Below, piece after piece: positions 8,925-60,286 of a stretch of 61,947 bases of DNA. Position numbers and translations under genes: made by a program. Source of the DNA: an uncultured Bacteroidia bacterium (lineage in GTDB: Bacteria > Bacteroidota > Bacteroidia > Bacteroidales > UBA932); contig CACZHP010000014.1 of NCBI GenBank assembly GCA_902780935.1, positions 1 to 61,947 on the forward strand, given 5' to 3'. The notes beneath the pieces were generated by a model. The model saw only the letters and a list, made by a program, of their open reading frames with translations. It had not been told where the DNA came from and made no database searches. Positions within the stretch are counted from its first letter, which is position 1; each line of letters opens with the position of its first letter.

Positions 8925-8990
8925 ATTCTTTAGCATTTTTTTGGCCGGGGTTGCAAGCGGCGCAAATCCGTCCCCGGAAGTTTTCGTCCG

Positions 8991-8998
8991 CAAAGATA
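8991..8998 (-). promoter_or_regulatory. Candidate metK promoter (-7 box)
   Basis: On the minus strand this reads TATCTTTG, an exact match to the Bacteroidetes -7 consensus TAnnTTTG, 66 bases upstream of the metK start. I see no clear -33 TTG. Confidence 0.5.
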
Positions 8999-9050
8999 AG
9001 ATAATTCTCTGTATGAATGAAATAAATTTTAGCAACCCGATTATTTGTAT

Positions 9051-9058
9051 TAATTTCG
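9051..9058 (+). promoter_or_regulatory. Candidate TonB-receptor promoter (-7 box)
   Basis: TAATTTCG matches TAnnTTTG except for one base and lies 56 bases before the receptor start. It sits in the divergent metK/receptor intergenic region. Weak evidence. Confidence 0.35.
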
Positions 9059-9114
9059 CAGGTTATTTAGAAAAGAGGAAAGATATAACAACTTTTATAT
9101 TACTTCAATCCATT

Positions 9115-17822: not shown

Positions 17823-19382
17823 TTATTCCAGCGTCCACTCGGCGCCGTCCTTGGTGTCTTTGACGGTGATGCCGAGGGCTTTGAGATGGTCCCGAATAGA
17901 GTCGCTTTGAGCCCAGTCTTTTGCTGCCTTGGCTTTCGCGCGCTCCTCAAGGACCATATTCATCAGTCCTGAAATGACTTCCTGGCTTTTACCGCCGTCA
18001 CCGGCACTCTCGTCTTTCAGGCCGAGGACGCCGAAGACTATGTCATCGAAGATCTGGAGCAAGGTCTTGATGTCTCCTTCTGACAGATTCCCGGCCCCTG
18101 AAGGACCCGCCTTTGCGGTATTGATGATCTTCACAGCCTCAAAGATGTGCGAGAGGGCGATCGGGGTATTTAGATCGTCGCAAAGGGCATCATAGACTCC
18201 GTCGAATATGGCCTTGATTTCCTGGGAGTCGGCCGGGCAGGAGTCTGGAGCGATGAAGGAGTACAGCTCGCCGTAGGGGAGATCCTTCGCTTCGCTCAGG
18301 ATGACACCATGAGCCTTGGCCAAGGCGACCAGATCCTTATAGGCTTGGAGAACCCGCTTGAGGGCTTTTTCGGAAGCTTGCAGGGCCTCGTTGCTGAAGT
18401 CGAGAGTGCCACGGTAGTGAGCCTGCAGGATGAAGAACCGTACAGTCATCGGGGAATAAGCCTTCTCAAGCTTCGGGTGGTTACCCGAGAACAGTTCTGG
18501 AAGGGTTATGAAGTTCCCGAGGGACTTACCCATCTTCTGGCCATTGATGGTGATCATATTGTTATGAACCCAATAGCGAACACCTCTGGTGCCTCTCCAG
18601 GCCACATTCTGGGCGATCTCGCACTCATGATGAGGGAACATAAGATCCATTCCGCCACCATGGATGTCGAACTCCTCACCGAGATATTTCTCACCCATCA
18701 CCGAGCACTCAAGATGCCATCCTGGGAATCCCTCGCTCCAGGGGCTCGGCCAATGCATGATGTGCTCCGGCTCGGCCTTCTTCCATAGGGCGAAATCATA
18801 CGGAGCCCTCTTGTCGCTCTGGCCGTCAAGAGCCCTGGTCCCCTCAAGCGTGTCGTCCAAATTGCGTCCCGAAAGAATGCCATAGTGGTATTTCTCGGAA
18901 TATTTCTGGACATCAAAATACACAGAACCATTTGAGATATAGGCATATCCAGCCTCCAAAATCTTCTTTATGGTCTCAATCTGCTCGATGATATGCCCAG
19001 AAGCACGAGGTTCGATCGAGGGCGGAGCGACATTCAGCAGACGCATCGCCTCATGGTAACGGAACGTGTAGTTCTGGACGACTTCCATGGGCTCCAGCTG
19101 CTCCAGCCTGGCCTTCTTGGAAATCTTGTCCTCACCTTCGTCCGCGTCATGCTCAAGATGACCCACGTCGGTGATATTCCGGACATAACGGACCTTATAG
19201 CCAAGGTGGCGGAGGAGCTTGAACAGCACGTCGTAGGTGACACCCGGCCGGGCGTGGCCAAGGTGGGCGTCGCCATAAACGGTCGGACCGCAGACATACA
19301 TCCCCACATGTCCCTCATGGACCGGAACGAACAGTTCCTTGTTCTTTGTCAGTGTATTTGTAAGAAACAGATTCCTCATCAC
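17823..19382 (-). CDS. cysS: Cysteinyl-tRNA synthetase
   Basis: 519 residues, class I synthetase charging tRNA-Cys. The HIGH-type motif ([11 protein letters not shown]), zinc-site residues ([21 protein letters not shown]) and the KMSKS-type loop KMGKSLGN are present in the expected order, with the alpha-helical anticodon-binding end at the C terminus. The protein is a little longer than usual because [15 protein letters not shown] (about residues 360-375) carries an in-frame copy of a dispersed repeat, in the linker between the catalytic and C-terminal parts. It ends five bases from the convergent GH92 gene and follows the rubredoxin gene by 34 bases. Confidence 0.97.
18280..18305 (-). repeat. 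Dispersed 26-bp repeat copy, in frame inside cysS
   Basis: Minus strand: GTCATCCTGAGCGAAGCGAA then GGATCT. Encodes VILSEAKDL in CysS. Same repeat family as the copies at 15119, 48039 and 59090. Lying in a synthetase that should be essential, it must be tolerated. Confidence 0.8.
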
Positions 19383-32908: not shown

Positions 32909-34765
32909 TTAGTATACGGTCCAACCCTCAGGGACTCCGTCTGGCCCGGTGACATCCCAGATGGCGTCATCCGCCTTGACGAATGTGCCTGTCGTCGCCA
33001 CGCCTTCCACCCAACCTTCCATATTGTTGATTAAATCAGACCCTGATGTCACGAATATATCAGTCGCCATCATCTCAATATGGTTAAGGCTGGAACACCC
33101 TTTGAACATACCGTTGTAACAGTAGGGATTAAGATTCTTCGCCGGCAATACCGGAGCCGTCACAAGGTTTGAGCAGTCCTCGAACATATGATAGTAACAT
33201 CCCATCGCCATAGAAGTGGAAGGTAATTCAGGCGCGACGGTCAAGGATGTGCAACCCCAAAACATATAACTATAACAATAGTTTGCCATTTCCTCGGCAG
33301 TAAGTACCGGAGCTGAAACGAGCTTTGTGCATCCTCTGAACATGCAATTGTAACACCTTGCGTATAATTTGGTCGCGGGAAGGGCAGGAGCTTTTGTCAA
33401 GGCACAATCCCAGAACATTGAGTCATAGCACCTTTCCGCCAGCGCTATGGCGGGAAGTTCAGGAGCGGACGAGAAATTCTCACAAAGGGCGAACATAGAC
33501 CTGTAACAAGACTCTGTTAAAGTTGTTGCCGGTAGAATAAGATTCCTTGACTCGTGAGAGAATAGATGTTTGTTATTGTAAAAGAGGTTTTCAAAAGTGT
33601 GAGCGCCTGAAAGGGTGTTACTCTCCCCGAAGGTATCCCGATTTATCAAGGACATGACATTCCCGTATGCGTAGATATTCCCTGAGCTACTGATTGTGGT
33701 GTGCCGCTCTCCATCGCTATAAGCATCGTTATTACCTTTTAAATAGACTTTGTCGGCAGTGGCGACTGGTATCTCAATCGTTTCGGAACTTTCTGATGTC
33801 CAATTGGTCAAGTCTTTGCTGTACTCGAGAGTCAGGCCGAGAGGGTTCGAGATGGTGACTGTTCCGTCCTCGACGGCCTCAAGGCAGAGAGGCAGGAACT
33901 GATCATCTGTCTCAAACTCAACGTTATTGTCCGCATTTGTCAAAGTCTTGAAAGCTCCTTGGTTCAAGCTGAAGGAAGAGTTGATTTTCCTTGTGCCTGT
34001 GGAAGTGGCTGTCTTAAAAGTAAGTGAGATCCCCTGCGAGAATGTGACAGGCAGGGTGACAATATAATAAGTTACTCCAGGCTCAAAAGTTTCTCCTTCT
34101 GGAGCATTGACTGTAATACTGGAGCTGGAGTTTGAGTAGTCGTCTTGTATGATCGGATAGCCATCCTCGCCAAAAGCAGCGGAGAAAGTACCCGCAAGAG
34201 TTTCCCCTCCATTTGCCGTCAAAGTGACTGACTCGATTCCCTCATTGGCTAGTGTGAAATGGAGGCTTGAGCATGCATGATGGAAAGAAATCTTAAATGA
34301 GAGCGAGCGTCCCATCGTGATCATGAGATCATCGTCGAATGTTCCTGGTCTCCCGGTCTGTACCGAAGGCAAGGTAGTCGTGATCTTCCCTTCCGAATAT
34401 GTGGCGCTCTCGTCATAGGGGTAGAGCCCGTAGATATATGAGTCATCCTCATTTTCATTCGTGCCCGATATGACCGATATAAGGCCTTCAAAATATGCGG
34501 TTGGCGCCGCCACCTCATTCATTGAGGTGAATTTTGAGGCTTTGGATCCTGCGAAAATCGAAATCTCGTCGTTAGGAAGCCAATATACCTTTGTTTTGTC
34601 AGCCTGTGTTGTCCGGGTCTTCACGGGCGTGTCATCACCCAAGGAGGCTGTGATAATTACTTTTTGCCCCTTGATAGAGGAATCTTCAAAATAGTCTATT
34701 GGTTGCTCAACAGAACAAGCTATGGCGGCAAAAACTGCCGTCATCAGAATTAGATGCTTTCTCAT
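32909..34765 (-). CDS. Surface lipoprotein with fimbrillin-like N terminus and Cys-rich BspA-like repeats
   Basis: 618 residues; lipoprotein signal MRKHLILMTAVFAAIA-C. Residues about 30-290 resemble the fimbrillin/Mfa-like fold (VKTRTTQADKTKVYWLPNDE, IYGLYPYDE, SYSGTR-type strands). Residues about 290-400 form a further beta domain. Residues about 405-565 are six or so repeats of about 24 residues with the pattern APxLPAxxLxxxCYxxMFxxCxxL, a BspA/DUF285-like leucine-rich repeat with two regular cysteines per unit. The C-terminal GWTVY tail is typical of such repeats. Likely a surface adhesin or fimbria-related subunit. A 46-residue peptide gene lies 20 bases upstream on the same strand. Confidence 0.75.
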   Translation of the reverse strand: MRKHLILMTAVFAAIACSVEQPIDYFEDSSIKGQKVIITASLGDDTPVKTRTTQADKTKVYWLPNDEISIFAGSKASKFTSMNEVAAPTAYFEGLISVISGTNENEDDSYIYGLYPYDESATYSEGKITTTLPSVQTGRPGTFDDDLMITMGRSLSFKISFHHACSSLHFTLANEGIESVTLTANGGETLAGTFSAAFGEDGYPIIQDDYSNSSSSITVNAPEGETFEPGVTYYIVTLPVTFSQGISLTFKTATSTGTRKINSSFSLNQGAFKTLTNADNNVEFETDDQFLPLCLEAVEDGTVTISNPLGLTLEYSKDLTNWTSESSETIEIPVATADKVYLKGNNDAYSDGERHTTISSSGNIYAYGNVMSLINRDTFGESNTLSGAHTFENLFYNNKHLFSHESRNLILPATTLTESCYRSMFALCENFSSAPELPAIALAERCYDSMFWDCALTKAPALPATKLYARCYNCMFRGCTKLVSAPVLTAEEMANYCYSYMFWGCTSLTVAPELPSTSMAMGCYYHMFEDCSNLVTAPVLPAKNLNPYCYNGMFKGCSSLNHIEMMATDIFVTSGSDLINNMEGWVEGVATTGTFVKADDAIWDVTGPDGVPEGWTVY

Positions 34766-46848: not shown

Positions 46849-47943
46849 ATGGAACGAACACTTGACACTGTCCCCGTGTCTGAATGGGGATTCTTTGACG
46901 AGAGTATTCCCCCGATAGTCATTGCCGGCCCTTGCAGCGCCGAATCTGAGTTGCAGATGATGATGACGGCCAAGGGCCTTCACGACTTCGGCATTCATGT
47001 TTTCCGCGCTGGAATATGGAAACCCAGGACTCATCCGGGCTCTTTCGAGGGTGCCGGGATACAGGGTCTTAAATGGCTCCAGAAAGTCAAGAGGGAGTAT
47101 GGAATGAAGGTCTGTACAGAGGTGGCCAGCCAGAAACATGTGTATGAGTGCATGAAGTATGGAGTGGACATGGTCTGGATCGGAGCCCGCACGACCGCCA
47201 ATCCTTTCCTCGTGCAGGAAATAGCTGAGGCTCTGCAGGATACGGATATTCCTGTCCTGGTCAAGAACCCTGTCAATCCAGACCTTGACCTTTGGGTCGG
47301 TGCCCTTGAGCGCCTGAACCGGGCCGGGATCAGGAAACTTGGCGTAATACATCGTGGCTTCTCCACGACCCAGAAGATCCCTTACCGCAACCTTCCCGGC
47401 TGGCAGATCGCCGTGGAGCTCCGCACCAGGTATCCCCAGATCCCGTTCTTCGCCGATCCGAGCCACATGGGAGGCTCCCGGAAGTATCTTAAGGAGCTGT
47501 CCCAGAGGGCTATGGATCTTGGTCTTGACGGGCTTATGATCGAGTCGCACTGCGATCCTTCATGCGCCTTGAGTGACGCTGCCCAGCAGCTTGTCCCTGC
47601 TGATCTTAAAACCCTTCTCGAGAGTCTTGTCGTACGCCAGAAACAGACAAACGACAAGGAATATAACGAGAACATAGAGCAGCTCCGCGCCCAGATTGAC
47701 GTGATCGACGAGAATCTTCTAATGAGCCTTGCCTCCAGGATGGATATCTCCCGCAAGATAGGGGAGTTCAAGAAAGCTCATAACATCGCCATCGTCCAGG
47801 CCGCACGCTGGGAGGACATCCTCTCCGACATGATCGCCAAAGGACGCACCTACGGTCTCCCTGAGTCTTTCGTCACCGCAGTCTTCAACGCCATCCACGA
47901 TGCCTCCGTCGCAGAGCAGAACCGGATACTCGAAAGAGAATAG
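46849..47943 (+). CDS. Bifunctional DAHP synthase / chorismate mutase
   Basis: 364 residues. Residues about 20-265 are a short-type DAHP synthase (the KDO8P/DAHP synthase barrel): IAGPCSAESELQMM, FRAGIWKPRTHPGSFEGAGI, KTEVAS-type VCTEVASQKHVYE, IGARTTANP, VKNPVNPDLDLWVGALERL and DPSHMGGSRKYLK (metal and substrate residues). Residues about 275-364 are an AroQ-type chorismate mutase helix bundle (LRAQIDVIDENLLMSLASRM, KIGEFKKAHNIAI). This fusion is common in Bacteroidetes and places the first step and the branch step of the pathway in one protein, with the mutase likely sensing feedback. Confidence 0.95.
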   Translation: MERTLDTVPVSEWGFFDESIPPIVIAGPCSAESELQMMMTAKGLHDFGIHVFRAGIWKPRTHPGSFEGAGIQGLKWLQKVKREYGMKVCTEVASQKHVYECMKYGVDMVWIGARTTANPFLVQEIAEALQDTDIPVLVKNPVNPDLDLWVGALERLNRAGIRKLGVIHRGFSTTQKIPYRNLPGWQIAVELRTRYPQIPFFADPSHMGGSRKYLKELSQRAMDLGLDGLMIESHCDPSCALSDAAQQLVPADLKTLLESLVVRQKQTNDKEYNENIEQLRAQIDVIDENLLMSLASRMDISRKIGEFKKAHNIAIVQAARWEDILSDMIAKGRTYGLPESFVTAVFNAIHDASVAEQNRILERE

Positions 47944-48038: not shown

Positions 48039-48065
48039 AGATCCTTCGCTTACGCTCAGGATGAC
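48039..48065 (-). repeat. Dispersed 27-bp repeat copy downstream of susD-1
   Basis: Minus strand: GTCATCCTGAGCGTAAGCGA then AGGATCT. It lies six bases past the susD-1 stop codon, between the gene and its terminator. Confidence 0.8.
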
Positions 48066-48071
48066 AGCGAG

Positions 48072-49607
48072 CTACTCGTTGGGAGTGACATCCCACCAGA
48101 GGCGTACCCACTGGTCGTCATTTCCGCCGAGATACTTGCTGACCGCGGCATCATACTGATCCTGGTTGCGCTCTGAGTCAGTGGATGAGTAAACGAAGCG
48201 CACAGGGTATGTCGTGTGGCCCGTATGGTTCATCTGCTGGTACTCTGTGAGCGGCATGGTGGGGATGTTGGTCCTCCTCCAGTCTGACCAGGCCTCGACG
48301 CAGTCACACATGAAGTCGGCGATCCACCTCTGCATGCAGATCTCCTTGATGGCACCGTCGTTGTCCTCGGGGAGCGGGTGGGCTGCGATGTACTCGTCGG
48401 CTCCCTCGGTCTCCTCGAAAGCGAAGGAGGCCTTGATAGCCTTGGCGTAGAGGTCGGCGGCGTCACCGTCGATGAGTCCCCTCTGCACGGCCTCCGCCAT
48501 GTTGAAGAGGCTCCTGGCGGCGGTAAAGAGGCCGTAGGTGGCATCCTGCACGCAATACTTCTCAGTGACGGAACAGGCAACTCCGGCCTGTGCTATGACC
48601 GAGGGGTTGTCCTCGAGGCCGAAGGTGATGCCGTAGTAAGACTCGAAGTCCGTGGGATCTCCCCCCCTCTTGCCGAGGTATGCGTCGTCACCGATGGTGA
48701 AGCGGGTGAACATACGGGGATCCTTGTACTCCTTGAGGGCGTCCACGATCATGGCGTTGGGACCCCAGGCGAGGTTCTTGCTGGGCGACAGCGCGACGGG
48801 ATACAGGGGCGAGCCCGTGGCCCTGGTGTCGTACTTGTAGTTGAGCTGGTCGGCTACCTCGGTGATTCCGCCCTGTGCGTAGGCCGCGCTGAACTTGGAC
48901 TTGGCCGTAGCGGCATCCACGTCGGAGATCCTAAGAGCCATGTCCATGCGGATGGTGGCGTTAAACTTCTTCCAGCGGGCGATGTTGCCTTTGAATAGGA
49001 TGTCGGCGTTGGAGAGGTTCGCTCCCTCCTGGAACATGCCGTAAGCCTGCTCCAAGTCGTTGAACAGGGCAGTGTAGATGTCCTGCTGAGAGTCGAAAGC
49101 CGGGAACCAGTTGTCATCGCTCTCACCCTTCCAGGCCTCTGACCAAGGGAGCGCTCCGACACAGTCGGTGAGGTGCATCATGATGAACGCCCTGAGGGTG
49201 AGCGCCGCGGCGATCTGGTTCTCGTTGCTCGAGCAGAACGGCTTGACAGTCACCTCGTCGTTCTTCGTCTCCTCGTCCTGGTTCAATTCGATGATCTGGT
49301 TGAGGACCTTCAAGGAGCCGTAGTAGTAGCCGCGGGTATCGAACTCGTAGGTCGTCATGAGCGATCCGAACTGGTTGTTGCCGGACTCGGCCAGGTAGCC
49401 GACGTGGTTGGGCTGCCAGTAGTCGTAGCTCGTGGCGGAGATGAAGTTCTGGGTGGTGAAGCACGCCTGCGTGAAGAGCAGGTTGGTGTACGGGGTGTTC
49501 GGGGAGTTGGGGGAGATGTTGATGTCCCCGAAGTCGCTGAAGTCGCAGCTTGTCAGCGTGGCGGCGATAGCGAGGGCCGCAAGTATGGATTTTCTAATCA
49601 TTTTCAT
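48072..49607 (-). CDS. SusD-like nutrient-binding lipoprotein (operon 1)
   Basis: 511 residues from the ATG at 49607 (MKMIRKSILAALAIAATLTS-C). It belongs to the SusD/RagB-like group: after the lipobox comes DFSDFGDINISPNSPNTPYT, helical TPR-like segments, and the C-terminal QRWIADFMCDCVEAWSDWRR region typical of the SusD-like type. It covers the SusC barrel on the cell surface and catches substrate, probably an oligosaccharide or peptide. It lies 20 bases after susC-1, same strand. The paralog at 57446 shares its layout (SCD-x-x-DFGDIN) but is well diverged. Confidence 0.93.
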   Translation of the reverse strand: MKMIRKSILAALAIAATLTSCDFSDFGDINISPNSPNTPYTNLLFTQACFTTQNFISATSYDYWQPNHVGYLAESGNNQFGSLMTTYEFDTRGYYYGSLKVLNQIIELNQDEETKNDEVTVKPFCSSNENQIAAALTLRAFIMMHLTDCVGALPWSEAWKGESDDNWFPAFDSQQDIYTALFNDLEQAYGMFQEGANLSNADILFKGNIARWKKFNATIRMDMALRISDVDAATAKSKFSAAYAQGGITEVADQLNYKYDTRATGSPLYPVALSPSKNLAWGPNAMIVDALKEYKDPRMFTRFTIGDDAYLGKRGGDPTDFESYYGITFGLEDNPSVIAQAGVACSVTEKYCVQDATYGLFTAARSLFNMAEAVQRGLIDGDAADLYAKAIKASFAFEETEGADEYIAAHPLPEDNDGAIKEICMQRWIADFMCDCVEAWSDWRRTNIPTMPLTEYQQMNHTGHTTYPVRFVYSSTDSERNQDQYDAAVSKYLGGNDDQWVRLWWDVTPNE

Positions 49608-49627
49608 AATCTTAACCTCCATATTTA

Positions 49628-52600
49628 TTAGAACATGCACCTGAAGGTGAGACCGAAGGTCCTGGAGGCGGGCGTCTGTCCTGCCTCAAGGTAGTTGCTG
49701 CTGGACTCCGAAGGGTCGAAGTTCGGGCAGGCGGAGTAGATCAGCCAGGGGTTGGTCGCCACGAAGGAGACGCTGGCGGAGCTGAGGCCGATGTTGAGCT
49801 TGTTGACGAAGGTCCTCGGGAGGGCGTAGGTCAGGGAGAGCTCGCGCATCTTCAGGTAAGTCCTCTTGTAAAGGACACCGTCGTTGTCGTAGTTGGACTT
49901 GTACTGGTACCACCTCCATGACTGGACGTGTGTATCCACAGGGTTCCCATCCTCGTCAACGCCGACGATGTGGACACCACCGCCCTTGGCGACAGGCTCG
50001 CGTACGTTGACACCGTTGTCGTTGACCTCGGCTGTCTCGGCGGCGAGGCCGGATCCCTGCATCCACAGGTTGGTCCATGAGAAGATGTTACCACCGATGG
50101 TGTAGTCGAAGCTCATGTTGAGCGACCATGTCTTGTAACGGAAGCCAGTGGAGAATCCACCGGTAAAGTCAGGCTGGAAGTTTCCGACGGTTTTCTCTGT
50201 GGCGTCGATGATAGGCATGTAGTCGCCGAAGTTCTGCTTCTGGCCGGCGCTGGAAGTGGCCCTGAGGACGTACTTGCCGTCATCGGTCCTCTTGAAGCGG
50301 GCACCGGTGTAGAGCACACCGACGGGCTCACCCTCGATGGAGTACATTCCGAACTCGTAGTTGAACTTTTCGTAGCGGAGGAAGTACTGCTTCTGCAGGG
50401 GGTGGAGCTCAACTAGGGTGTTGACGTTCTTCGCGATGTTGAAGTCGGCGTTCCAAGTGAAGTCCTTCGTGCGGATGATGTCTCCGCCGATCTCGAACTC
50501 GACACCACGGTTGCGCACCAGACCGGCGTTGATCTGCCTCATGTTCCATCCTGTCTGTCCGGCGACGGGCAGATTGATGATCTGGTTCTTGGTGTCGCGG
50601 TTGTAGAAGTTGATGTCACCATGCAAACGGTTGCGGAACATCCTGAACTCGGTACCGACCTCATAGGAAGTGGAGATGGTCGGCTTGAGGTCCGGGTCGA
50701 TCTGGGTCGTGGGGACGCTCATCGAGGAGATGGAGTTGTTGTACCTGGAGCCGATACCATAGACATAGGTAGTGGCGTAGGCGCCCATCGTCGATCCGAC
50801 CTGGGCGGCGCTGGCGCGCAACTTCCAGAAGTCAAGCCAGTTGGCTTTGAAGAACTTGTTCAGCATGATGGAGACAGAAGCACCGCCGTAGAGGTAGTGG
50901 TTCTGCGAGACGGGCAGCCTGGAATCCCAGTCGTTGCGGAGCGACAGGTCGAGGAAGAACGTGTCGTCGAAGCCGGCGGTCACGTTGCCGTAGACCGAGC
51001 GGGTCGTGTACTGGGTCTCGCTGTTGGATGTCGAGTAGGTGTTGACCGAGTTGGAGAGGTTGTAGAGCTTCGGGATCATGAGCCCGGCGTTGGTGTTGGA
51101 GCTCAGGGTTCCGTAGTCGTAGTCCTCCTGCTCGATGAACGCGGCGGCATTGATGCCGAGACGGTCATTGATGAAACTCTTGTCCCAGGTGATCCTGCCC
51201 TGGTAGGTCATGTCCATGACATGGTTCTGGCTCTCGCCGTAGTAGGACTCCCAGTTGCGGACGTTGCCGGCCTGGTGCTGCGTGGTCTCGCCGTGGTAAT
51301 TGCGGATGTTGCCCATGATGCGGGCACCCACCTTGAAGTTCCAGGGAAGGATGATCTCGGCGTCGCCGGTGATGACGTTCCATAGGTAGGTCCCGTAGGC
51401 GTTGTGCAGCTCAGCATAGGCGAAGGGGTTGTCATGGTAGGTCGGGTTGAAGTTGGACTTGCTGGTGATGTTCCAGGTCCTGACGCTTCCGTCCGGACGC
51501 TCCCAGTCCCTCAGCCTCTTGAAGTCGATGTTCATCTGTCCCCACTGGATGAAGTCAGCGAGGGGGCTGTTGTTGGATGAGTACCCGTCACCTGCGGCAT
51601 TGTGGTCCTGGCGGTAGGTGAACTTGTAGTCCAGGGTGAGGTTGAGCCAGTTGGTAGGCTTGATGTTGGACTTCATAGTGAGGTAGCGCCTGACAGCCCT
51701 GGCGTTGTACATGATGCTGGTGCGGTCGGTGTTGGTGAAGGACACGCGGGTGTTGTGCTTTGGACCGCCGTTGGACATGGCGATGTTAGTCGTGTTGGTC
51801 CATCCGGTGCGGAACATGTCGGCGGGGTTGAACCTGCTGATCCACGGGTCAGCCTTCATATAGTAAGGGCTGGTGGGATCCCAGTATTGAGCCGAGGCCA
51901 CGTTGACACTCTCGTCGAAACGGGCTCCCCAGTTCTCGTCGTTGCCCCACTCCATGTTGTAGGAACCGTCGGGGTTCTGGAGCTTGTTGCGCTCACCCAT
52001 CAGGTACTGAGGTGACATGGTGTCGACGTTGGCGTAGCTGTCGAGCTGGCCGAGCAGCTGGCCGGTCTCACCCATGGAACCTCCACCGTAAGCGTGCTGT
52101 AGCTTGAGGTGATTGTAGTAACGCTCCATGGTTGTGGTGTGGCTGAACTCGACATGAGTCTCGCCGCTCTTGGCGCTGCGGGTGGTGATGATGACGGCAC
52201 CGTTGCCTCCCTGGGAACCGTACAGGGCCGTGGCGGCAGGTCCCTTCAGGATGTTGACATTCTCGACGTCATCCATGTTGACAGCGTTCTTGTTCGTGAT
52301 CGTTCCGTCAACGACATAGATCGGCTCGCTACCGCCCCATGACCCGTAGGCCGTGGTACCGCGGAGGACGATGGAACCGGAATCGAAAGTCGTACCCGAG
52401 CTGGAGTAGAAGCGGGCTCCGGCCACCTTACCGGCGAGGGACTGGCCGAGGTCGGTCTGGCGCGCGATGGTCAACTTCTCGCCGTCGATCTTGACGGTGG
52501 AGTAGCCGATGGCCTTGTCCTTTCTCTTCAGACCCTGGGCCGTCACGACGACCTGGTCGAGGAGCTCCGAGTCGGGGGCCAACACGACATCAACTGTCGT

Positions 52601-52861
52601 GGCCGCCGGCTTGGTCTGGTTGGCGAACCCGATGCAGGAGAACACGAGTGTGCTCCCGGCGGGAACGCTGCGGAGGGAATAACGGCCGTTAGCGTCGGTC
52701 ACGACACCGTTGGTCGTCCCCTGCACAAAGACAGACGCTCCGATCACGGGGAGGCCGTCCTCCGCAGAGGTGACCGTACCGCTGACGGTCATGTTCTGCG
52801 CGAATGCCATGCCCGCGCTGACGCACAGGCAGAGCAAAATGGAGAATAATTTTTTACCCAT
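49628..52861 (-). CDS. SusC-like TonB-dependent transporter (operon 1)
   Basis: 1077 residues from the ATG at 52861 (MGKKLFSILLCLCVSAGMAF-AQ). A carboxypeptidase-regulatory-like domain (MTVSGTVTSAEDGLPVIGAS), a DQVVVTAQGLKRK TonB-box region, a plug domain (IYVVDGTITNKNAVNMDDVE, NILKGPAATALYGSQGGNGA) and a barrel ending in TFRCMF make a full SusC/RagA transporter. Its first 14 codons are identical in DNA to those of susC-2 and form one arm of the inverted repeat. In the orientation shown it faces the 350-base AT-rich region on the recombinase 5' side, so it is the better candidate for the expressed state. Confidence 0.95.
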   Translation of the reverse strand: MGKKLFSILLCLCVSAGMAFAQNMTVSGTVTSAEDGLPVIGASVFVQGTTNGVVTDANGRYSLRSVPAGSTLVFSCIGFANQTKPAATTVDVVLAPDSELLDQVVVTAQGLKRKDKAIGYSTVKIDGEKLTIARQTDLGQSLAGKVAGARFYSSSGTTFDSGSIVLRGTTAYGSWGGSEPIYVVDGTITNKNAVNMDDVENVNILKGPAATALYGSQGGNGAVIITTRSAKSGETHVEFSHTTTMERYYNHLKLQHAYGGGSMGETGQLLGQLDSYANVDTMSPQYLMGERNKLQNPDGSYNMEWGNDENWGARFDESVNVASAQYWDPTSPYYMKADPWISRFNPADMFRTGWTNTTNIAMSNGGPKHNTRVSFTNTDRTSIMYNARAVRRYLTMKSNIKPTNWLNLTLDYKFTYRQDHNAAGDGYSSNNSPLADFIQWGQMNIDFKRLRDWERPDGSVRTWNITSKSNFNPTYHDNPFAYAELHNAYGTYLWNVITGDAEIILPWNFKVGARIMGNIRNYHGETTQHQAGNVRNWESYYGESQNHVMDMTYQGRITWDKSFINDRLGINAAAFIEQEDYDYGTLSSNTNAGLMIPKLYNLSNSVNTYSTSNSETQYTTRSVYGNVTAGFDDTFFLDLSLRNDWDSRLPVSQNHYLYGGASVSIMLNKFFKANWLDFWKLRASAAQVGSTMGAYATTYVYGIGSRYNNSISSMSVPTTQIDPDLKPTISTSYEVGTEFRMFRNRLHGDINFYNRDTKNQIINLPVAGQTGWNMRQINAGLVRNRGVEFEIGGDIIRTKDFTWNADFNIAKNVNTLVELHPLQKQYFLRYEKFNYEFGMYSIEGEPVGVLYTGARFKRTDDGKYVLRATSSAGQKQNFGDYMPIIDATEKTVGNFQPDFTGGFSTGFRYKTWSLNMSFDYTIGGNIFSWTNLWMQGSGLAAETAEVNDNGVNVREPVAKGGGVHIVGVDEDGNPVDTHVQSWRWYQYKSNYDNDGVLYKRTYLKMRELSLTYALPRTFVNKLNIGLSSASVSFVATNPWLIYSACPNFDPSESSSNYLEAGQTPASRTFGLTFRCMF

Positions 52862-52871
52862 AAGCTTAAAC
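52821..52871 (-). repeat. Inverted repeat left arm (51 bp, perfect) over the susC-1 start
   Basis: On the minus strand it runs from GTTTAAGCTTATGGGTAAAA to GCCTGTGCGT and is identical to 54192-54242 on the plus strand. It includes the ATG. A further 13-bp match (ATTAAGTTTAATT at 52876-52888 versus 54176-54188) extends it inward after a 3-4 base difference; outward the arms continue with a few mismatches. Confidence 0.97.
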
Positions 52872-52873
52872 AT

Positions 52874-53221
52874 TGAATTAAACTTAATATTTAGTGAATA
52901 AATAGTGAATAATCTCGACTACTTATGTCGGCCGGCGGAGTCGCCGGAAGGGGACAGTTTGCCCTAACCCGAACGAAATACGCAAAAACCGACATACAAA
53001 TAAAAGAATAAAATTGGAATAATGCAACATTAACAAGTAGATACAACAATTAGAATAATATGGAATTTACATCGTTTTATAAGGTTCGCCCTTAAAGTTG
53101 TTTTAGCGCTTCAATTTAAAAATTATTACTATTTTGTAGGAAATAATTTCAAATTGAAACTTATTAAATTATTTGTGTAAACAGGTTTTTTGTTTAGTAA
53201 AACATTTAAATTTTTTAGATA
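52874..53221. promoter_or_regulatory. AT-rich leader between susC-1 and the recombinase gene
   Basis: 348 bases without a gene. It must hold the recombinase promoter and probably the susC-1 promoter. Visible structure: CCGGCG-GAGT-CGCCGG (52932-52947), and TATGTCGG (52924-52931) paired with CCGACATA (52989-52996) around it. I found no exact TAnnTTTG on either strand, so promoter positions are not assigned. The GC-rich island near 52925-52980 stands out from the AT-rich surroundings. Confidence 0.5.
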
Positions 53222-54142
53222 ATGTCACGAAAAACATTCAAAGAAGTCTGTCGGCAGTGGGAGTTGGAGAAGGCGAAATTCATCAAGCCGACTTCACTCG
53301 CGGCATATTCATTGACCCTGAGATACCATCTTGAGCCGAGATTCAAAACCCTTGGCGACATATCCCCGGAGTCAGTACAGAGGCTCGCCGATGAGGAACT
53401 CGAGTCAGGGAATAGCCCGACCACTGTGAAAGGAATCATCCTGGTTTTGAAAATGGTCATCCGATACTGCGAACGGAACGGCTGGATGCCGGAACGGAAG
53501 TATGAGGTAACATATCCGAAAAGGAAGGAGAAGCGCAATCCTCAGATCCTGCTCCTTGATGAGGAAAAACTGATGCTCTCATGGCTCGAGAGGAACCCTT
53601 CACCCGCGAACCTCGGACTGATTATATGTCTCTGCTGCGGACTGAGGATCGGGGAGGTTTGCGCTCTGAGATGGGAGGATGTCGATGTGCGGCGTTGTGT
53701 GATCCACATCCGGAGGACCGTACACAGGATATACGACCGGGAACGTCCCGACAAGAAATCCCAACTGACTCTTGGAGTACCGAAGACCGAGGACTCCCGG
53801 CGCGATGTCCCAGTCTCCCACTATCTTACCAATATATTAAAAAAGGTATATCTCGATACTTATCCCGAACAATACATAGTCTCCGGGAAAGAAAAGCCCA
53901 TGGACCCGCAGACCTTCCGAAACCATTTCAAGAAAGTCGCCCGTATCCTGGAGATTCCGGCGAGGAAAGTGCATAGCCTGAGACACACTTTCGCCACAAG
54001 GTGCGTTGAGAGCAAATGCGACTTCAAGACCCTGAGTTCCCTGCTCGGCCACGCTGATATCACGACTACCCTCAATCTGTATGTCCACCCGGGCATAGAG
54101 CAGAAACGACGTTGCGTAGAGGATATGATGAATATGCTGTAG
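53222..54142 (+). CDS. Tyrosine recombinase (site-specific integrase/invertase)
   Basis: 306 residues. N-terminal SAM-like core-binding domain (about 1-90, KFIKPTSLAAYSLTLRYHLE), then the catalytic domain with the full residue set: Arg in CCGLRIGEVCALRW, His-x-x-Arg in HSLRHTFATR, His in LLGHADITTT and the nucleophile Tyr in LNLYVHPG. It is short, unlike conjugative-element integrases with arm-binding domains, and no other mobile-element genes are nearby. It lies between two inverted repeats over divergent susC starts, so it is likely the invertase of that segment. The neighbours are the susC-1 leader (left) and susC-2 start 59 bases to the right. Confidence 0.92.
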   Translation: MSRKTFKEVCRQWELEKAKFIKPTSLAAYSLTLRYHLEPRFKTLGDISPESVQRLADEELESGNSPTTVKGIILVLKMVIRYCERNGWMPERKYEVTYPKRKEKRNPQILLLDEEKLMLSWLERNPSPANLGLIICLCCGLRIGEVCALRWEDVDVRRCVIHIRRTVHRIYDRERPDKKSQLTLGVPKTEDSRRDVPVSHYLTNILKKVYLDTYPEQYIVSGKEKPMDPQTFRNHFKKVARILEIPARKVHSLRHTFATRCVESKCDFKTLSSLLGHADITTTLNLYVHPGIEQKRRCVEDMMNML

Positions 54143-54191
54143 ACGGCCTTATAGGGGAATATTTTTTTATCAATTATTAAGTTTAATTAAA

Positions 54192-54242
54192 GTTTAAGCT
54201 TATGGGTAAAAAATTATTCTCCATTTTGCTCTGCCTGTGCGT
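54192..54242 (+). repeat. Inverted repeat right arm (51 bp, perfect) over the susC-2 start
   Basis: Identical, in opposite orientation, to 52821-52871. Between the arms are 1320 bases (52872-54191) holding the recombinase gene and the AT-rich leader. The coding part is identical even at synonymous positions for 14 codons, while susC sequences diverge after that, as expected for a recombination site. Confidence 0.97.
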
Positions 54243-57200
54243 GAGCGCTGGCATGGCATTCGCTCAGAACATGACCGTCACAGGTACGGTCACTTCCGCG
54301 GAGGATGGCCTCCCTGTGATCGGGGCGTCCGTCTTTGTACAGGGGACGACCAACGGTGTCATCACCGACGCCAACGGTAACTATACCTTGCGCAACGTCC
54401 CGTCTAACGGCATGCTCGTGTTCTCGTGCATAGGCTTCTCCAACCAAACGAAAGCCGTGGCACAGACAGTTAATGTCGTTCTTTCACCTGATTCCGAGCT
54501 ACTTGACCAGGTCGTTGTCACGGCCCAAGGTCTGACCAGGAAACAGAGGGCTATCGGTTATTCCGCTCAAACAATGAAACAGGAAGAGCTTACCTCGACC
54601 CGTAGTTTCTCATTGGGTAACTCCCTGGCTGGTAAGGTCGCCGGAGCCCAGTTCTGGGGATCCGCTGGATCGACCTTCAGCGAGGGTAAGATCATCCTCC
54701 GAGGCCCGACATCCTACAGCAACCAGGAGGGTAGCGAGCCTATCTACGTCATCGACGGAACGATCACCGGCGCAGGTGCAGTCAACATGGATGATGTCGA
54801 GAGCATCAACATCCTGAAGGGTCCCGCCGCGACCGCCCTGTACGGTTCCAGAGGAGCCAACGGTGCAGTGATCGTCACCACCAAGAAGGCCCAGGAGGGA
54901 CACAGCCAAGTCGAGTTCTCCCACACCACCTCAGCTGAGGTGTTCTACAACCATATCAAGTTCCAGAAGATGTTCGGTGGCGGTAGCGCCGCTTCCGAAG
55001 GTGCCACATCGCTTTACGCCCAGGCTGGAGGCGATGTCGATGTCCTCGACGCCAAGTACCTCTTCGAGCAGAACGAATGGGGACTCGGTGACGGCACCTA
55101 TATGATGGACTATTTCCACGATGAGAACTGGGGTCCCCGCTACGACGACAAGACCCTTGTCCGCACCGCCCTTTCATGGGATCCCACATCTTCCCACTAT
55201 AAGGAGACCGACACCTGGAGCTATAGGCTGAATCTCCGCGACCTTACACGCGTAGCCTGGACGAACAACACCAACGTCGCCTTCACGAAGGCTGTCAAGG
55301 GCATGAACACCCGCGTGTCGTTCAGCAACGTTGACCGCCCCGGTATCTTCGAGAACTCGAAGGCCGTGCGCAGATCGTTCAGCATCTCCTCGCAGATCAA
55401 ACCCAATAGCTGGCTGAATGCTGACATCAGCTATCGCTACCGTTTCCGCAGGAACCAGAACGCCGAGCAGGAGGGTTACTCCGCCAACGGTAACTACGTC
55501 TGCGACTTCATCCAGTGGGGTCAGACCAACGTCAGAATCGCCGACCTGAGGGACTGGCAGCGCCCGGACGGATCGTGGAGGTCATGGAACATCAAAAGTA
55601 CTGATGACCTTACCGCCAACTTCCACGACAATCCCTTCGCCGTGATGCACAACTACACCTACACTTCCGAGACTCAGTACCACATGCTTTCCGGCGACAT
55701 CTACGCCACCCTGCCTTGGAACTTCAAGCTCGGAGCACGTATCAACAACATGTTGAACGGCAGCCGCTACGAGGAGAAGAACGGAAGCGGATCCATCAAC
55801 TACACCCCCTATTTCAGGACGTATTTCAACCAGACCAACGATATCACCGCCCAGGGATATCTGACATGGGCGAACCAGTACGTCGAAAACCGCCTCTCGA
55901 TCGAGGCAGCTGCCTTTGCTGAAACCCGCAAATACGACTACTACTACCTGAACAGCTCCACCAACGGCGGACTTTCAGTTGACGGCCTCTTCAACCTCAG
56001 CGCATCAGCATCAACGTATTCCACGAACAACAGCGAGACCCACTACAAGACCCGCTCGTTCTTCGGCAACACCACGATCGGCTGGGACGACCTCGTCTAT
56101 GTTGACGGCTCGATCCGTTACGATCTCGACTCCCGCCTCCCTGCCGACAACAACGGTTACCTCTACGGCGGAGCCTCCCTATCCTTCATGGCCAGCAAGC
56201 TCATCAAGGCTCCTTGGCTCGACTTCTGGAAGATCAGGGGTTCCATCGCTCAGGTCGGTTCGACTCTCGGTGCCTACAACGTTCTTCCTACCTACACTAT
56301 CGGGACCAAGCTTCACGGTTTGACCACTCTGTACGAGCCCACAAAGCAGGTCAACCAGAACATCAAACCCACCATCTCCACATCCTACGAGGTCGGTACC
56401 GAGTTCAAGATGTTCAAGAACAGGTTCTATGGTGACATCAACCTCTATCAGAAGAACACCAAGAACGACATCATCGCCGCGACCGTCCTTCCCCAGTCGG
56501 GTTATTCAAGCAGGACGATCAACGCCGGTCTTGTGACCAACAAGGGTATCGAGATCCTCCTCGGTGGCACCCCTGTCCGTACAAGGGATGTCGAGTGGAA
56601 CGTCAGCGCCAACATCGCTAAGAACGTCAACACCCTCGTCGAGCTGAACCCCGACAACCCCGAGCAGACTTTCGTCAACATCTGGGGTAACTCCTTCTAC
56701 TATTACTGGTACGTCCAGTCGAGAGTAGGCGAGCCTATCGGCGCCATCGCTACCAACGCCCGTTGGAAGAGGAACGAGAACGGCCAGCTGATCCTCAGGA
56801 AGGGTACCACAGCCACAGGTGACGTGCGTCCTACCTTCGAGACCAACGAGCAGAAAGTCGCCGGTAACATCCAGCCCGATTTCACAGGTGGTTTCAACAC
56901 CAGCTTGAGGGTAAAGAACCTCACTTTCAGCGCCGCTTTGGATTATGTTATCGGTGGACAGCTTGTTTCCTGGACCAACATGTGGGGAGAGGGTTCCGGT
57001 CTGCTTGCCAGCACCGCTGCCAACAACGACAAAGGCGTCTGTGTCCGTGAGCCTGTCCAGAAGGGCGGTGGATACCACCTGACCGGTGTCGATGCCGATG
57101 GCAACCCCATGGACGGCTATATCGAGGCCTGGTACTACAACTATTATAAGTACGTCTATGACCAGGATTCCACGATCTACGACCGCACCTACTTCAAGCT

Positions 57201-57426
57201 CCGTGAGCTCTCGCTCCGCTACGACTTCCCGAAGGTGCTGCTCAACAGAATCAAGGGTGTCTCAAGGGCCAGTGTCGCTTTCGTCGCCACCAACCCTTGG
57301 CTGATCTACTCCGCTGTCCCTAACATCGATCCTTCGGAAATGGGCGGCTCTAATTACAACTTCCTTGAGGGAGGTCAGGCTCTGTCCACACGCACATTCG
57401 GACTCACTCTCAATCTCACTTTCTAA
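54202..57426 (+). CDS. SusC-like TonB-dependent transporter (operon 2)
   Basis: 1074 residues starting MGKKLFSILLCLCVSAGMAF. Same layout as operon 1: carboxypeptidase-like domain (MTVTGTVTSAEDGLPVIGAS), DQVVVTAQGLTRK, plug (PIYVIDGTITGAGAVNMDDV) and a barrel ending LTLNLTF. The surface-loop regions differ from susC-1, so the cargo probably differs. The region between recombinase and ATG is only 59 bases with no promoter I can see, so in this orientation it may be silent or read through from the recombinase gene. Confidence 0.95.
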   Translation: MGKKLFSILLCLCVSAGMAFAQNMTVTGTVTSAEDGLPVIGASVFVQGTTNGVITDANGNYTLRNVPSNGMLVFSCIGFSNQTKAVAQTVNVVLSPDSELLDQVVVTAQGLTRKQRAIGYSAQTMKQEELTSTRSFSLGNSLAGKVAGAQFWGSAGSTFSEGKIILRGPTSYSNQEGSEPIYVIDGTITGAGAVNMDDVESINILKGPAATALYGSRGANGAVIVTTKKAQEGHSQVEFSHTTSAEVFYNHIKFQKMFGGGSAASEGATSLYAQAGGDVDVLDAKYLFEQNEWGLGDGTYMMDYFHDENWGPRYDDKTLVRTALSWDPTSSHYKETDTWSYRLNLRDLTRVAWTNNTNVAFTKAVKGMNTRVSFSNVDRPGIFENSKAVRRSFSISSQIKPNSWLNADISYRYRFRRNQNAEQEGYSANGNYVCDFIQWGQTNVRIADLRDWQRPDGSWRSWNIKSTDDLTANFHDNPFAVMHNYTYTSETQYHMLSGDIYATLPWNFKLGARINNMLNGSRYEEKNGSGSINYTPYFRTYFNQTNDITAQGYLTWANQYVENRLSIEAAAFAETRKYDYYYLNSSTNGGLSVDGLFNLSASASTYSTNNSETHYKTRSFFGNTTIGWDDLVYVDGSIRYDLDSRLPADNNGYLYGGASLSFMASKLIKAPWLDFWKIRGSIAQVGSTLGAYNVLPTYTIGTKLHGLTTLYEPTKQVNQNIKPTISTSYEVGTEFKMFKNRFYGDINLYQKNTKNDIIAATVLPQSGYSSRTINAGLVTNKGIEILLGGTPVRTRDVEWNVSANIAKNVNTLVELNPDNPEQTFVNIWGNSFYYYWYVQSRVGEPIGAIATNARWKRNENGQLILRKGTTATGDVRPTFETNEQKVAGNIQPDFTGGFNTSLRVKNLTFSAALDYVIGGQLVSWTNMWGEGSGLLASTAANNDKGVCVREPVQKGGGYHLTGVDADGNPMDGYIEAWYYNYYKYVYDQDSTIYDRTYFKLRELSLRYDFPKVLLNRIKGVSRASVAFVATNPWLIYSAVPNIDPSEMGGSNYNFLEGGQALSTRTFGLTLNLTF

Positions 57427-57445: not shown

Positions 57446-59032
57446 ATGAAAAAGATATTTACTTTAATAGTTTCCGTTTTCGCCGCATCAATGTTCTTGA
57501 CCAGCTGCGACCCTACGGATTTCGGTGACATCAACAAGGATCCCAACAAGCCTTCCACCTCGTTTACCACGTACTTCTTCACTGATGCCTGCCGTTACGC
57601 GAACAGGTTCGCCTACACGACTGCGACCAACGCCTACGACCCTTGGCTTCAAGAATGGGCCGGATATCTTTCCGAGTCCAAGAACAACCAGTACGGGCCT
57701 CTTTCCACGACATCCTATTATTCCTGCTCATCCATTTACCTCAATCCCCTGAAGAACCTTCATAACATCATTGAGATGAATGAGGATCCCGAGCAGAAGG
57801 ACCAGACCTACGTGGCTATCCTGGGCACCTCCGGGAACCAGATCGCCGCAGCCAAGACCTTGATGTCATACTACTTCATGTCCATCTCCGACATCAACGG
57901 ACCTGTCATCATCACCGATGCCTTCAAGGGCGCATCCGAGGATAACTGGACCCCGAAGTACGATACCCAACAGGAGGCCTACACCATTCTGGACAACACC
58001 CTTAAGGAGGCCTATGCCCAGTTCGACGAGAGCGGTACTCTTGACGGTTCGGCTGACGTGCTCTACGGTGGTGACATCAAGAAGTGGAAGAAGTTCAACG
58101 CTTCGCTCCGTATGCTCCTCGCCATCAAGCTCAGCGACGTGGATCCCAATACCGGTAAGACACGTTTCGCCGCCGCTTATGCGGACGGTGGTATGACCGA
58201 TGTCGCTGACGGCTTGGATTTCACTTACGATGATCTCAATTGGAACATGATGTACTACTGGTGCAGCCCCGATTATTCATCGGCCGGTCTGAACCCTGTC
58301 CCTAACTACTTCATTGTCGAGACCATGAAAGAGCTCAAGGACAACCGTATGTTCAAGTATTTCGATGTCGAGTGCTATAAGGGCAAGCGTGATCCTGAGA
58401 TCTTCCCTCGTGACCAGTACTCTTCCTTCTATGGCGCTCCTTTCGGCCTTGTTTCTAATGAGGCGGTGTCAAAATGGAGCGACTGCGTCTCCAGCATCAA
58501 CTACAGCATGCTTGGCCAGTCCGCCACCGTTCCGATCATCCCTGCCGCCAGGATCCTCCTCACAGAGGCCGAGGCCGCTTACAGGGGCTGGATCAACGCC
58601 GACCCCAAGACCCTTTACGAGGCGGGTATAAAGGCATCATTCGCCTGGTGGGGTGCGACCGGCGCCGACGCTTATGTCAAGAGTGACGCTGTCGCCTACA
58701 ACCCTGACAACGGGCTTGAGCAGATTGCAATCCAAAGGTGGATCGCTGGTTATCTCGCTGACGGTGTTCAGGCTTGGTCCGATTGGAGGCGTCTGGATAT
58801 CCCGAAGATGCCCGTGGGACCTGGGGCTTCCAACACCGGAACCACCCACTATCCTTACCGTCTGCCGTTCTACGACACTGACCGCGACTACAACAAAGAG
58901 AACTACCAGGCCGCCATCGCCACTCTCCAACCCAATGGAAAGGACGACAAGGACAACCGCATGTGGTGGGATGTCGCTCCCAACTGGGAGGGTGTCCTGA
59001 CCGAAGCGCAGTGCACACCTCCTGCTCTATAG
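57446..59032 (+). CDS. SusD-like nutrient-binding lipoprotein (operon 2)
   Basis: 528 residues; lipoprotein signal MKKIFTLIVSVFAASMFLTS-C then DPTDFGDINKDPNKPSTSFT. Helical SusD-like architecture with the same C-terminal IQRWIAGYLADGVQAWSDWR block as the operon 1 protein. It lies 19 bases after susC-2 and ends before a terminator. It partners the upstream transporter at the cell surface. Confidence 0.93.
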   Translation: MKKIFTLIVSVFAASMFLTSCDPTDFGDINKDPNKPSTSFTTYFFTDACRYANRFAYTTATNAYDPWLQEWAGYLSESKNNQYGPLSTTSYYSCSSIYLNPLKNLHNIIEMNEDPEQKDQTYVAILGTSGNQIAAAKTLMSYYFMSISDINGPVIITDAFKGASEDNWTPKYDTQQEAYTILDNTLKEAYAQFDESGTLDGSADVLYGGDIKKWKKFNASLRMLLAIKLSDVDPNTGKTRFAAAYADGGMTDVADGLDFTYDDLNWNMMYYWCSPDYSSAGLNPVPNYFIVETMKELKDNRMFKYFDVECYKGKRDPEIFPRDQYSSFYGAPFGLVSNEAVSKWSDCVSSINYSMLGQSATVPIIPAARILLTEAEAAYRGWINADPKTLYEAGIKASFAWWGATGADAYVKSDAVAYNPDNGLEQIAIQRWIAGYLADGVQAWSDWRRLDIPKMPVGPGASNTGTTHYPYRLPFYDTDRDYNKENYQAAIATLQPNGKDDKDNRMWWDVAPNWEGVLTEAQCTPPAL

Positions 59033-59085: not shown

Positions 59086-59089
59086 CTTT

Positions 59090-59116
59090 GTCATCCTGAG
59101 CTTGAGCGAAGGATCT
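59090..59116 (+). repeat. Dispersed 27-bp repeat copy between susD-2 and lpxK
   Basis: Plus strand: GTCATCCTGAGCTTGAGCGA then AGGATCT. Its end overlaps the lpxK stop codon (59115-59117). Same family as 15119, 18280 and 48039. Confidence 0.8.
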
Positions 59117-60263
59117 AATAGTCTTTATGGAATTCCCTGAGTGCCCGTAACAGCGCTTCCTCGAAAACCTCCTTCTCATGCTCAGACAGGAACCCGACCT
59201 CGATCGGAACCTGGAACATCCTGACTTTCAGCTCGTCAGGAATATCCTTCAAGTCAAGGACCCTCTGGCAGTCCTTCTCGGTGGTCGCCACGACGGCCGT
59301 CGGATGCTCCTTGACCGCCCTGAGGATCGCGCGTATGTCCGCCTTGGTGTACTTGTGGTGATCCTCGAAGCGGAACCTCTTGATAATCTTATGCTCGTCG
59401 CTCAGGTACATCCTCAGGGGAGTGTCCTTTGCGATGCCGGAGAACAGGATGAGTTTCTGAGAATATGCGTAACGGGGATCCGCCTCCTCGAAAATGGGTG
59501 TCAGGGCAATGTACCAGATGGTGGTGAAAAGAAGTATCTTTTCCTTGCCCTTCTTGTCCGTACCCCGGCATGTCTCCGGGTTGAAATCAGCGAGACCGAA
59601 AGCCTCTGCCCATTGGACTTTCTTTTCGTCCTCAAGATAGGCGGGACACTTTGAGACTATGATGATGTCCGCCTCGGAGAGTCTTTCCGGCAGATCACGG
59701 AGCCTTCCGAAGGGTAGAAGATGGTCCTTGTGGACCGGCCTGTTATAATCGACAAGAATAATATTAAGATATGCCCGGAGTGCCCTGTACTGGAAAGCGT
59801 CGTCGAGGACTATCAAGTCGGCCGGAGCGATCTGCTCATCAGCGCATCCACGGGTCCTTTTTTCTGTCTTTAGTTTCTCGGGATGGCAAAGCAGGTCGCA
59901 GCCTTTGACCCTGTCCCTGTCAACGGCGACAGTCACTCCCGGGAATTTCTTCTTAATCTGGAGAGGCTCGTCGCCATATTCCCGGACAGATCCTTCTCTC
60001 TTGACTATCTGGAAGCCCCTGGTGGATCTGCGGTGGCCCCTTGAGAGGACAGCGATGTCCTCGTAGGCCCAGTCGTCGCTCTTCAGGAGCGTACGGAGTA
60101 TCATCTCGGTGTGGGGAGTCTTGCCGGTTCCACCGGCGGTGATATTGCCCACGCAAATGGTCGGGACCTCACATGTCCTGACCTTGCGGATACCATGGTC
60201 GTAGCAGAAGTGCCTGAACTTCAGGGCCAGATAGTATGGTGCAAGTATGATCCTGTCAAGCAT
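59115..60263 (-). CDS. lpxK: Tetraacyldisaccharide 4'-kinase
   Basis: 382 residues from the ATG at 60263 (MLDRIILAPYYLALKFRHFC). Phosphorylates the 4' position of lipid A precursor at the inner membrane. The P-loop GNITAGGTGKTPHTEMIL, the Walker-B/catalytic region DLIVLDDAFQYRAL and the conserved LPFGRLRDLPERLSEAD are present. A gram-negative outer membrane with lipid A is thus implied. The stop codon overlaps a dispersed repeat. Confidence 0.95.
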   Translation of the reverse strand: MLDRIILAPYYLALKFRHFCYDHGIRKVRTCEVPTICVGNITAGGTGKTPHTEMILRTLLKSDDWAYEDIAVLSRGHRRSTRGFQIVKREGSVREYGDEPLQIKKKFPGVTVAVDRDRVKGCDLLCHPEKLKTEKRTRGCADEQIAPADLIVLDDAFQYRALRAYLNIILVDYNRPVHKDHLLPFGRLRDLPERLSEADIIIVSKCPAYLEDEKKVQWAEAFGLADFNPETCRGTDKKGKEKILLFTTIWYIALTPIFEEADPRYAYSQKLILFSGIAKDTPLRMYLSDEHKIIKRFRFEDHHKYTKADIRAILRAVKEHPTAVVATTEKDCQRVLDLKDIPDELKVRMFQVPIEVGFLSEHEKEVFEEALLRALREFHKDY

Positions 60264-60286
60264 CGCGGCACAAAGATACAAAAATA

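Follow-up and report, generated by a model that had tools for sequence, protein, structure and literature searches.

The DNA analysed here (hereafter the window; 61,947 nucleotides) is one entire contig, CACZHP010000014.1, from the genome of an uncultured Bacteroidia bacterium of the UBA932 lineage of Bacteroidales (GCA_902780935.1; 3.05 Mb in 82 contigs). Between two divergent susCD operons it carries a short cassette composed of a leader and a tyrosine recombinase gene, and we consider it probable (roughly 80%) that the locus is a self-contained two-way DNA inversion switch, in which a promoter would be turned towards one operon or the other by the switch's own recombinase. This reading is carried by the anatomy of the locus, the conservation of the leader, the difference between species in the susC gene that the leader adjoins, and the recombination of the arms in two genomes. 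The features of the locus are listed below in window coordinates, with the strand in brackets where there is one.

46849..47943 (+), flanking gene, DAHP synthase with chorismate mutase; left boundary of the locus in relatives (Pfam PF00793, PF01817; synteny)
48072..49640 (-), susD of the left operon (Pfam PF12771/PF12741)
49628..52873 (-), left-operon susC (allele type L, leader-linked), with the shared start codon at 52861 and a further in-frame ATG at 52873
52821..52871, perfect 51-bp inverted repeat, left arm
52874..53221, leader between left susC and recombinase gene, with a conserved promoter-like element aimed at the left susC
52876..52889 (-), putative exchange element TATTAAGTTTAATT, left copy
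52982..52993 (-), invariant 12-bp box GTCGGTTTTTGC, just 3' of the promoter-like element (14/14 leader-linked starts, 0/6 others)
52997..53027 (-), promoter-like TTG-N20-TTTATTTG facing the left susC (13/14 leader-linked, 0/6 recombinase-linked starts)
53222..54142 (+), tyrosine recombinase gene within the putative invertible segment (Pfam PF00589, PF14659; alignment)
54175..54188 (+), putative exchange element TATTAAGTTTAATT, right copy
54192..54242, perfect 51-bp inverted repeat, right arm
54202..57426 (+), susC of the right operon, allele type R; recombinase-linked and without leader in this assembly
57446..59032 (+), susD of the right operon (Pfam PF12771/PF12741)
59115..60281 (-), flanking gene lpxK, which bounds the locus on the right in relatives (Pfam PF02606; synteny)

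We propose that the recombinase binds two inverted 14-bp elements just upstream of the divergent susC start codons, and that site-specific exchange there would flip a segment of about 1.3 kb (about 52890-54174) holding the promoter-bearing leader and the gene of the recombinase itself, whose transcription presumably starts at the other end of the leader region. After the flip, the leader with its untranslated region would precede the other susC of the two; what remains of each susC, shared start codon included, would not move, so that the protein made from that start would remain the same. In the assembled state the left operon would have the leader and the right operon, behind the recombinase gene, would receive at most read-through. 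Because the recombinase gene runs in the same direction as the leaderless susC and stops 59 bases before its start, such read-through may leave this gene low rather than off. Reversibility within a strain and the outcome for expression are what these sequences lead us to expect.

Along their 51 bp the two arms (52821-52871, 54192-54242) are exact reverse complements of each other, and they cover the starts of the two divergent susC genes, with an ATG inside each (52861 on the minus strand, 54202 on the plus strand). The left susC open reading frame (ORF) has an additional in-frame ATG at 52873, 12 bases upstream of 52861 and outside the arm. Both operons encode a SusC-type TonB receptor followed by a SusD-like_2 lipoprotein (Pfam). 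A preliminary description of this DNA had reported the perfect repeat with both start codons and the single 348-base leader between the arms (52874-53221), and we find both as described. It had also reported that identity falls off in the coding region beyond the repeat. This decay is present but gradual, and similarity is not confined to 51 bp: inverted similarity extends over 383 nt at 81% (52499-52881 / 54182-54564) and reaches 32 nt into the cassette (81%). We rejected a chance repeat from the repeat and similarity comparison of the two arms. An assembly chimera is unlikely, both flanking genes bordering the orthologous locus on one contig in seven relatives.

Relatives came from two overlapping sets: 400 genomes drawn from the genus, of which 110 match the recombinase at E <= 1e-20, and 232 genomes at least 85% complete, of which 11 match it at E <= 1e-90. 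The locus was placed in the window and 11 relatives (12 loci), with one genome per species, so that all comparisons are between species. Both flanking genes are on the contig in the window, G017, G033, G235, G114, G066, G176 and G430; the G422 stretch has the DAHP-synthase/chorismate-mutase flank only, and those of G408, G300 and G073 have only lpxK. Five loci have two divergent susC genes around the cassette, and inverted repeats cover both susC starts in the four relatives among them as well. With lpxK drawn on the right, the leader of these loci faces left in the window and G073 and right in G176, G430 and G408; both orientations, anticipated in the preliminary description, are therefore found among related genomes. 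The other seven loci lack a susC behind the recombinase gene and have a single one next to the leader, which faces right in G017, G033, G235, G114, G066 and G422 and left in G300. G422 has a second, tandem susCD preceded by a 206-nt match to the leader. At this locus (L074, contig C23, 10544-15794), the two tandem susC genes each have a leader copy and a direct-orientation site, a layout that could delete one operon.

By lpxK, the closest species to the window is G066 (support 99/99), where the leader faces right. Because its truncated recombinase gene runs into a stretch with a 73-nt, 95% match to the end of the SusD gene on its own right-hand side, the sequence suggests that G066 once held a second operon. 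The lpxK tree implies at least two changes of orientation and at least four of operon number; it covers ten of the 12 placed loci (without G422, whose stretch stops short of lpxK, and G430) and leaves three of its seven inner branches open.

The 12 alignable leaders share, on the strand facing susC, a strongest block TTGCA..ATTCC..TTTTATTTG followed by the invariant GTCGGTTTTTGC. The TTG / TTTG spacing resembles what we take to be the Bacteroidetes promoter (-33/-7) consensus. Among 20 susC starts bearing the site pattern described below (13 genomes), 14 lie behind the leader and all of the remaining six behind the 3' end of the recombinase gene. The promoter-like motif, which was defined after viewing the leaders, precedes 13 of these 14 leader-linked starts, not independent of one another as the leaders are homologous, and none of the six recombinase-linked starts; the 12-bp box precedes 14 of 14 and none of six. 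By itself the motif is weak evidence, with three matches in the whole window and 47 of 2000 leader shuffles also scoring, and the argument from the leader rests on its conservation and one-sidedness. We regard it as a putative working promoter. A consensus fold of the leader RNA (window 52855-53000, minus strand; nine genomes) gave a small hairpin in which three of the 35 predicted pairs vary on both sides, a signal too faint to use, and an Rfam search of 52700-54400 returned no matches.

Four allele types, L, R, X and Y, can be distinguished among the susC genes of the locus, and three of them (L, R and Y, not X) occur in both linkage states. Type L is leader-linked in the window, G300, G176 and G430, and recombinase-linked in the other gene of G176 and on contig C195 of G073. 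Type R is recombinase-linked in the window and leader-linked in the tandem gene of G422 and on contig C285 of G170. Type Y is recombinase-linked in G430, G073 and G408, and leader-linked in G066, G114, G422 and the other gene of G408; type X is leader-linked only. The clearest pair is an L-type susC beginning 'MSKKFV', leader-linked in G176 and recombinase-linked on G073:C195, with 82% amino acid identity over 502 residues and the same unusual arm. The G073 genome is 71% complete and 5% contaminated, and C195 may belong to another strain or species; such a mixed origin is immaterial for the linkage argument.

Recombination of the arms can be followed in the first 57 nt of the genes, which we compared for 18 starts (without those on the later-found contigs G073:C195 and G170:C285). 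In the window, the L and R starts are identical at 55 of 57 nt, and the proteins share 54% (587 identical aligned residues). Against its orthologues the window's L start reaches 38-44 of 57 (four comparisons), and the R start 47 of 57 against its single orthologue. G430 gives the same picture: its L and Y starts agree at 56 of 57 nt, versus 39-48 between its L and other L starts (four) and 40-49 between its Y and other Y starts (six). As the two starts are closer to each other than to their orthologues in both the window and G430, we infer that the arms recombine within these two genomes (concerted evolution). Between genomes, identity averages 0.82 for 36 same-type pairs and 0.72 for 111 different-type pairs. 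Along the gene, L and R of the window are 0.97 identical in codons 1-20 and about 0.6 past codon 100, where orthologues stand at 0.76-0.89; past codon 60, identity within the window is already below that to orthologues. The remaining four of the six within-genome pairs score 55 (G408), 48 (G422), 44 (G176) and 41 (G073) of 57. The G408 pair is neutral, both genes being of type Y and the recombinase-linked start being 57/57 identical to its G422 orthologue. The diverged arms of G073 accompany a recombinase frame that is broken at the locus, although this break may be an assembly error.

Just inside the 51-bp repeat lies a perfect 14-bp inverted pair, TATTAAGTTTAATT (52876-52889 / 54175-54188). 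With one mismatch allowed, the window contains these two copies and no others, and 100 shuffles gave none; TATTAAGTTTA is invariant in all 11 arms compared. The site pattern AAGTTTARTN{4,8}TTAAGCTTATG gives 20 sites, each a susC start, across all 13 genomes selected because they have the locus, and the reversed-pattern control gave none in any of the 13. In the window's own genome the pattern has two sites, both at this locus, and the start pattern at up to three mismatches matches the same two places only; looser sites elsewhere are possible. The start GTAAAAA..TT is near-invariant, single-susC species included. The odd spacer TAAAAAAT stays with the 'MSKKFV' susC in G176 and G073:C195, across their differing leader linkage. 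Because this unusual arm sequence stays with susC, we place the exchange point on the cassette side, in TATTAAGTTTA; it is probably the 14-bp element just inside the repeat, not the 51-bp repeat itself. The variable N7/8 spacer between AAGTTTAA and TTAAGCTT was considered as the strand-exchange overlap and rejected, as it differs between the window's arms and stays with susC in the G176/G073:C195 pair. Downstream of the recombinase gene, G422 and G114 match G408 as far as the exchange element and then jump to the flank, which suggests break points at which the left operon was lost at that element. The preliminary description had proposed that inversion of 52872-54191 switches the leader between the operons. 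Switching of the leader agrees, between species, with the conserved one-sided element, the change of linkage in three of four allele types and the homogenised arms; the 14-bp element is a likelier exchange site than the 51-bp repeat, and about 52890-54174 the likelier segment. Expression of one receptor pair at a time, also proposed there, is a putative outcome, read-through from the recombinase gene being possible.

The central ORF (53222-54142) encodes 306 amino acids and matches Phage_integrase PF00589 (E 1.9e-24); its nearest solved structure is XerD (1a0p, E 1.8e-12). R142, K188, H251, R254, H277 and Y287, which we take to be the catalytic residues of a tyrosine recombinase, are invariant in an alignment of 11 members. 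The full-length ORF, its family match and these six positions bear out the complete tyrosine recombinase between the arms reported earlier. A recombinase ORF, full-length or decayed, adjoins the leader at all 12 placed loci, and its frame is broken in G017, G066 and G073.

Several observations weigh against the switch, or against this recombinase as the agent of inversion, a role for which its catalysis is predicted from sequence. G176 has a full-length recombinase ORF and yet arms that agree at only 44 of 57 nt, its codons 41-100 being 0.95 identical, and its leader lacks the promoter-like motif. The enzyme is retained in species without an inverted partner site of this pattern, as the single-susC relatives G235, G033, G114 and G300 have a full-length ORF and one site each, and G422 carries two sites in direct orientation only. 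Finally, differing leader linkage is seen between species, from one genome each, and could also arise by allele replacement through homologous recombination at the arms.

This last point belongs to a broader alternative, in which general RecA-type homologous recombination and gene conversion act on the arms, interspecies transfer replaces susCD alleles, and the recombinase is not the agent. It would account for the long similar tracts (516 nt at 88% in G176, 268 nt at 94% in G408, and 856 nt at 85% at a paralogous locus in G073), for the scatter of types L, R, X and Y over species and sides, and for the homogenised coding sequence past the exchange point, which site-specific exchange alone leaves unexplained. 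It fits poorly with a recombinase ORF beside the leader at every placed locus and with the 3' end of that gene upstream of all six leaderless starts. Nor would it predict that the inferred exchange point and the two deletion break points coincide in one short conserved element, or that the sole two-arm locus with a broken recombinase frame (G073) has diverged arms. We judge this account unlikely, though it is the strongest of the competing ones.

Inversion of the entire two-operon block between the flanking genes would change the flank that the leader faces and leave its susC partner the same. In the window the leader-linked L-type susC is indeed the left one, whereas in G430 and G176 it is on the right, and a 28-nt, 93% inverted repeat, TGTCATCCTGAGC..GAAGGATCT, lies just outside both susD genes (48039-48066 / 59089-59116); similar sequence is present in the loci L078 and L079. 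A change of partner is impossible by this route, yet L, R and Y occur in both states, and the Y-type susC on the lpxK side is without leader in G073 and with leader in G066, G114 and G408. As the sole explanation, block inversion is quite improbable; it may have occurred as an additional event. Least probable of all are static divergent paralogues beside a relic recombinase, their starts conserved by selection on translation initiation and signal peptide, for although GTAAAAA..TT is near-invariant even in single-susC species and the recombinase is broken in G017, G066 and G073, such selection would conserve orthologue starts too, whereas the two starts within the window, and likewise the two within G430, resemble each other more than their orthologues, and leader linkage differs between orthologues.

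Beyond the inversion switch itself, we tentatively consider that the locus may be a two-slot exchange station for receptor operons, an extension we hold to be possible rather than probable. Besides inverting the promoter, the same recombinase would remove an operon, for which G114 and G422 give a hint, and might also bring in new susCD alleles, with four allele types circulating among related species through one chromosomal position while the cassette stays. If so, this second role would be the reason why single-susC species retain a full-length recombinase.

The locus is, in our view, a compact version of the known SusC/SusD inversion switching and the same kind of system. One agent of that switching, the Tsr0667 invertase of Bacteroides fragilis, is a tyrosine recombinase. 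The motif AGTYYYN4GDACT, presumably its inverted repeat, has no match in 52821-54242. Elsewhere in the window this motif has four matches at three places (18512-18526, 32595-32609, 33811-33825), versus 0.53 expected. B. fragilis varies SusC/SusD by inversion, with 'intergenic shufflon' regions placing alternative susCD pairs behind one promoter and, in region EE, inverted repeats that overlap the susC start codon (PMC5729914). The window locus is alike in its inverted repeats at susC starts around a putative invertible segment and in its tyrosine recombinase, a PF00589 member with invariant active-site positions. It differs in having the recombinase gene inside the segment and two symmetrical operons; and whereas large gene-bearing segments move behind a promoter in B. 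fragilis (PMC5729914), here the leader-recombinase cassette would move and the receptor genes stay. Tsr0667 is described as one invertase that controls three SusC/SusD clusters and nine other regions (PMC4747536; also the review PMC12632263 and Carasso 2024, PMC10939037); here the site pattern is found only at this locus in its own genome.

Promoter inversion between inverted repeats also governs surface molecules at Bacteroidales capsule loci, through Mpi, and at Tsr19-controlled promoters (PMC10939037, PMC12632263, PMC4747536); Mpi is a serine recombinase (PMC4747536). Those promoters are ON/OFF for one operon, whereas the leader here would serve one of two. In the Hin flagellar switch of Salmonella, a serine recombinase gene and a promoter serving one operon lie inside an invertible segment of about 1 kb; the window locus similarly has its recombinase gene and promoter-like leader within the segment but, unlike Hin, has a tyrosine recombinase and two operons. 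The sap promoter inversion of Campylobacter fetus and vsa of Mycoplasma pulmonis set one promoter before alternative surface-protein genes sharing 5' coding ends, the sap switching being RecA-dependent and its segment larger than here. One promoter-like leader for alternative surface-protein genes with common 5' coding ends is what the window locus shares with these two, which belong to other phyla and involve other proteins. Among titles and abstract openings in the open-licence part of PubMed Central, we found no description of this layout.

Related arrangements are present at other loci. Contig C26 of the window's own genome (L006, 1-1447) has a 52%-identical recombinase between 108-nt arms, 98% complementary, over another susC-like signal-peptide start; one arm is cut off by the contig end, and a short stub lies beyond the other. 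At the lengths searched, five of ten loci of this class have inverted repeats at the cassette ends (L006, L079, L080, L083, L086) and five have none (L077, L078, L081, L084, L087). At L083 there are two susC genes, and the arms measure 856 nt at 85%. The layout thus recurs in paralogous form. In a looser recombinase family (80 genome_contigs loci and 14 others), at least eight of 94 have a susC match within 2.5 kb; five of these (L092-L096) are genus loci already in the set and only L135, L168 and L179 are new, and the count is a lower bound, as the receptor genes of L180 were missed by the queries. L180 (G424:C48, 3233-10938) is a compact form in which two divergent TonB-receptor-like genes (OMP_b-brl_4) flank the recombinase gene and a BACON-domain protein is encoded after each of them; 30 and 77 bases separate recombinase and receptor genes, and the inverted stretches measure 362 and 377 nt at 76-77%. 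L168 (bin SUG2176, 4666-12366) has a more distant recombinase (39%) between two divergent susC genes, with the longer non-coding stretch, about 280 bases, downstream of the recombinase gene.

The comparison also offers a way to find such switches without reads, through the same allele occurring before and behind a leader and through starts that are more alike within a genome than between orthologues. With one leader, one recombinase and two operons around 1.3 kb, the locus is a near-minimal, self-contained candidate for receptor switching in Bacteroidota, and its transfer to a model host could make the choice between nutrient, and perhaps phage, receptors open to study.

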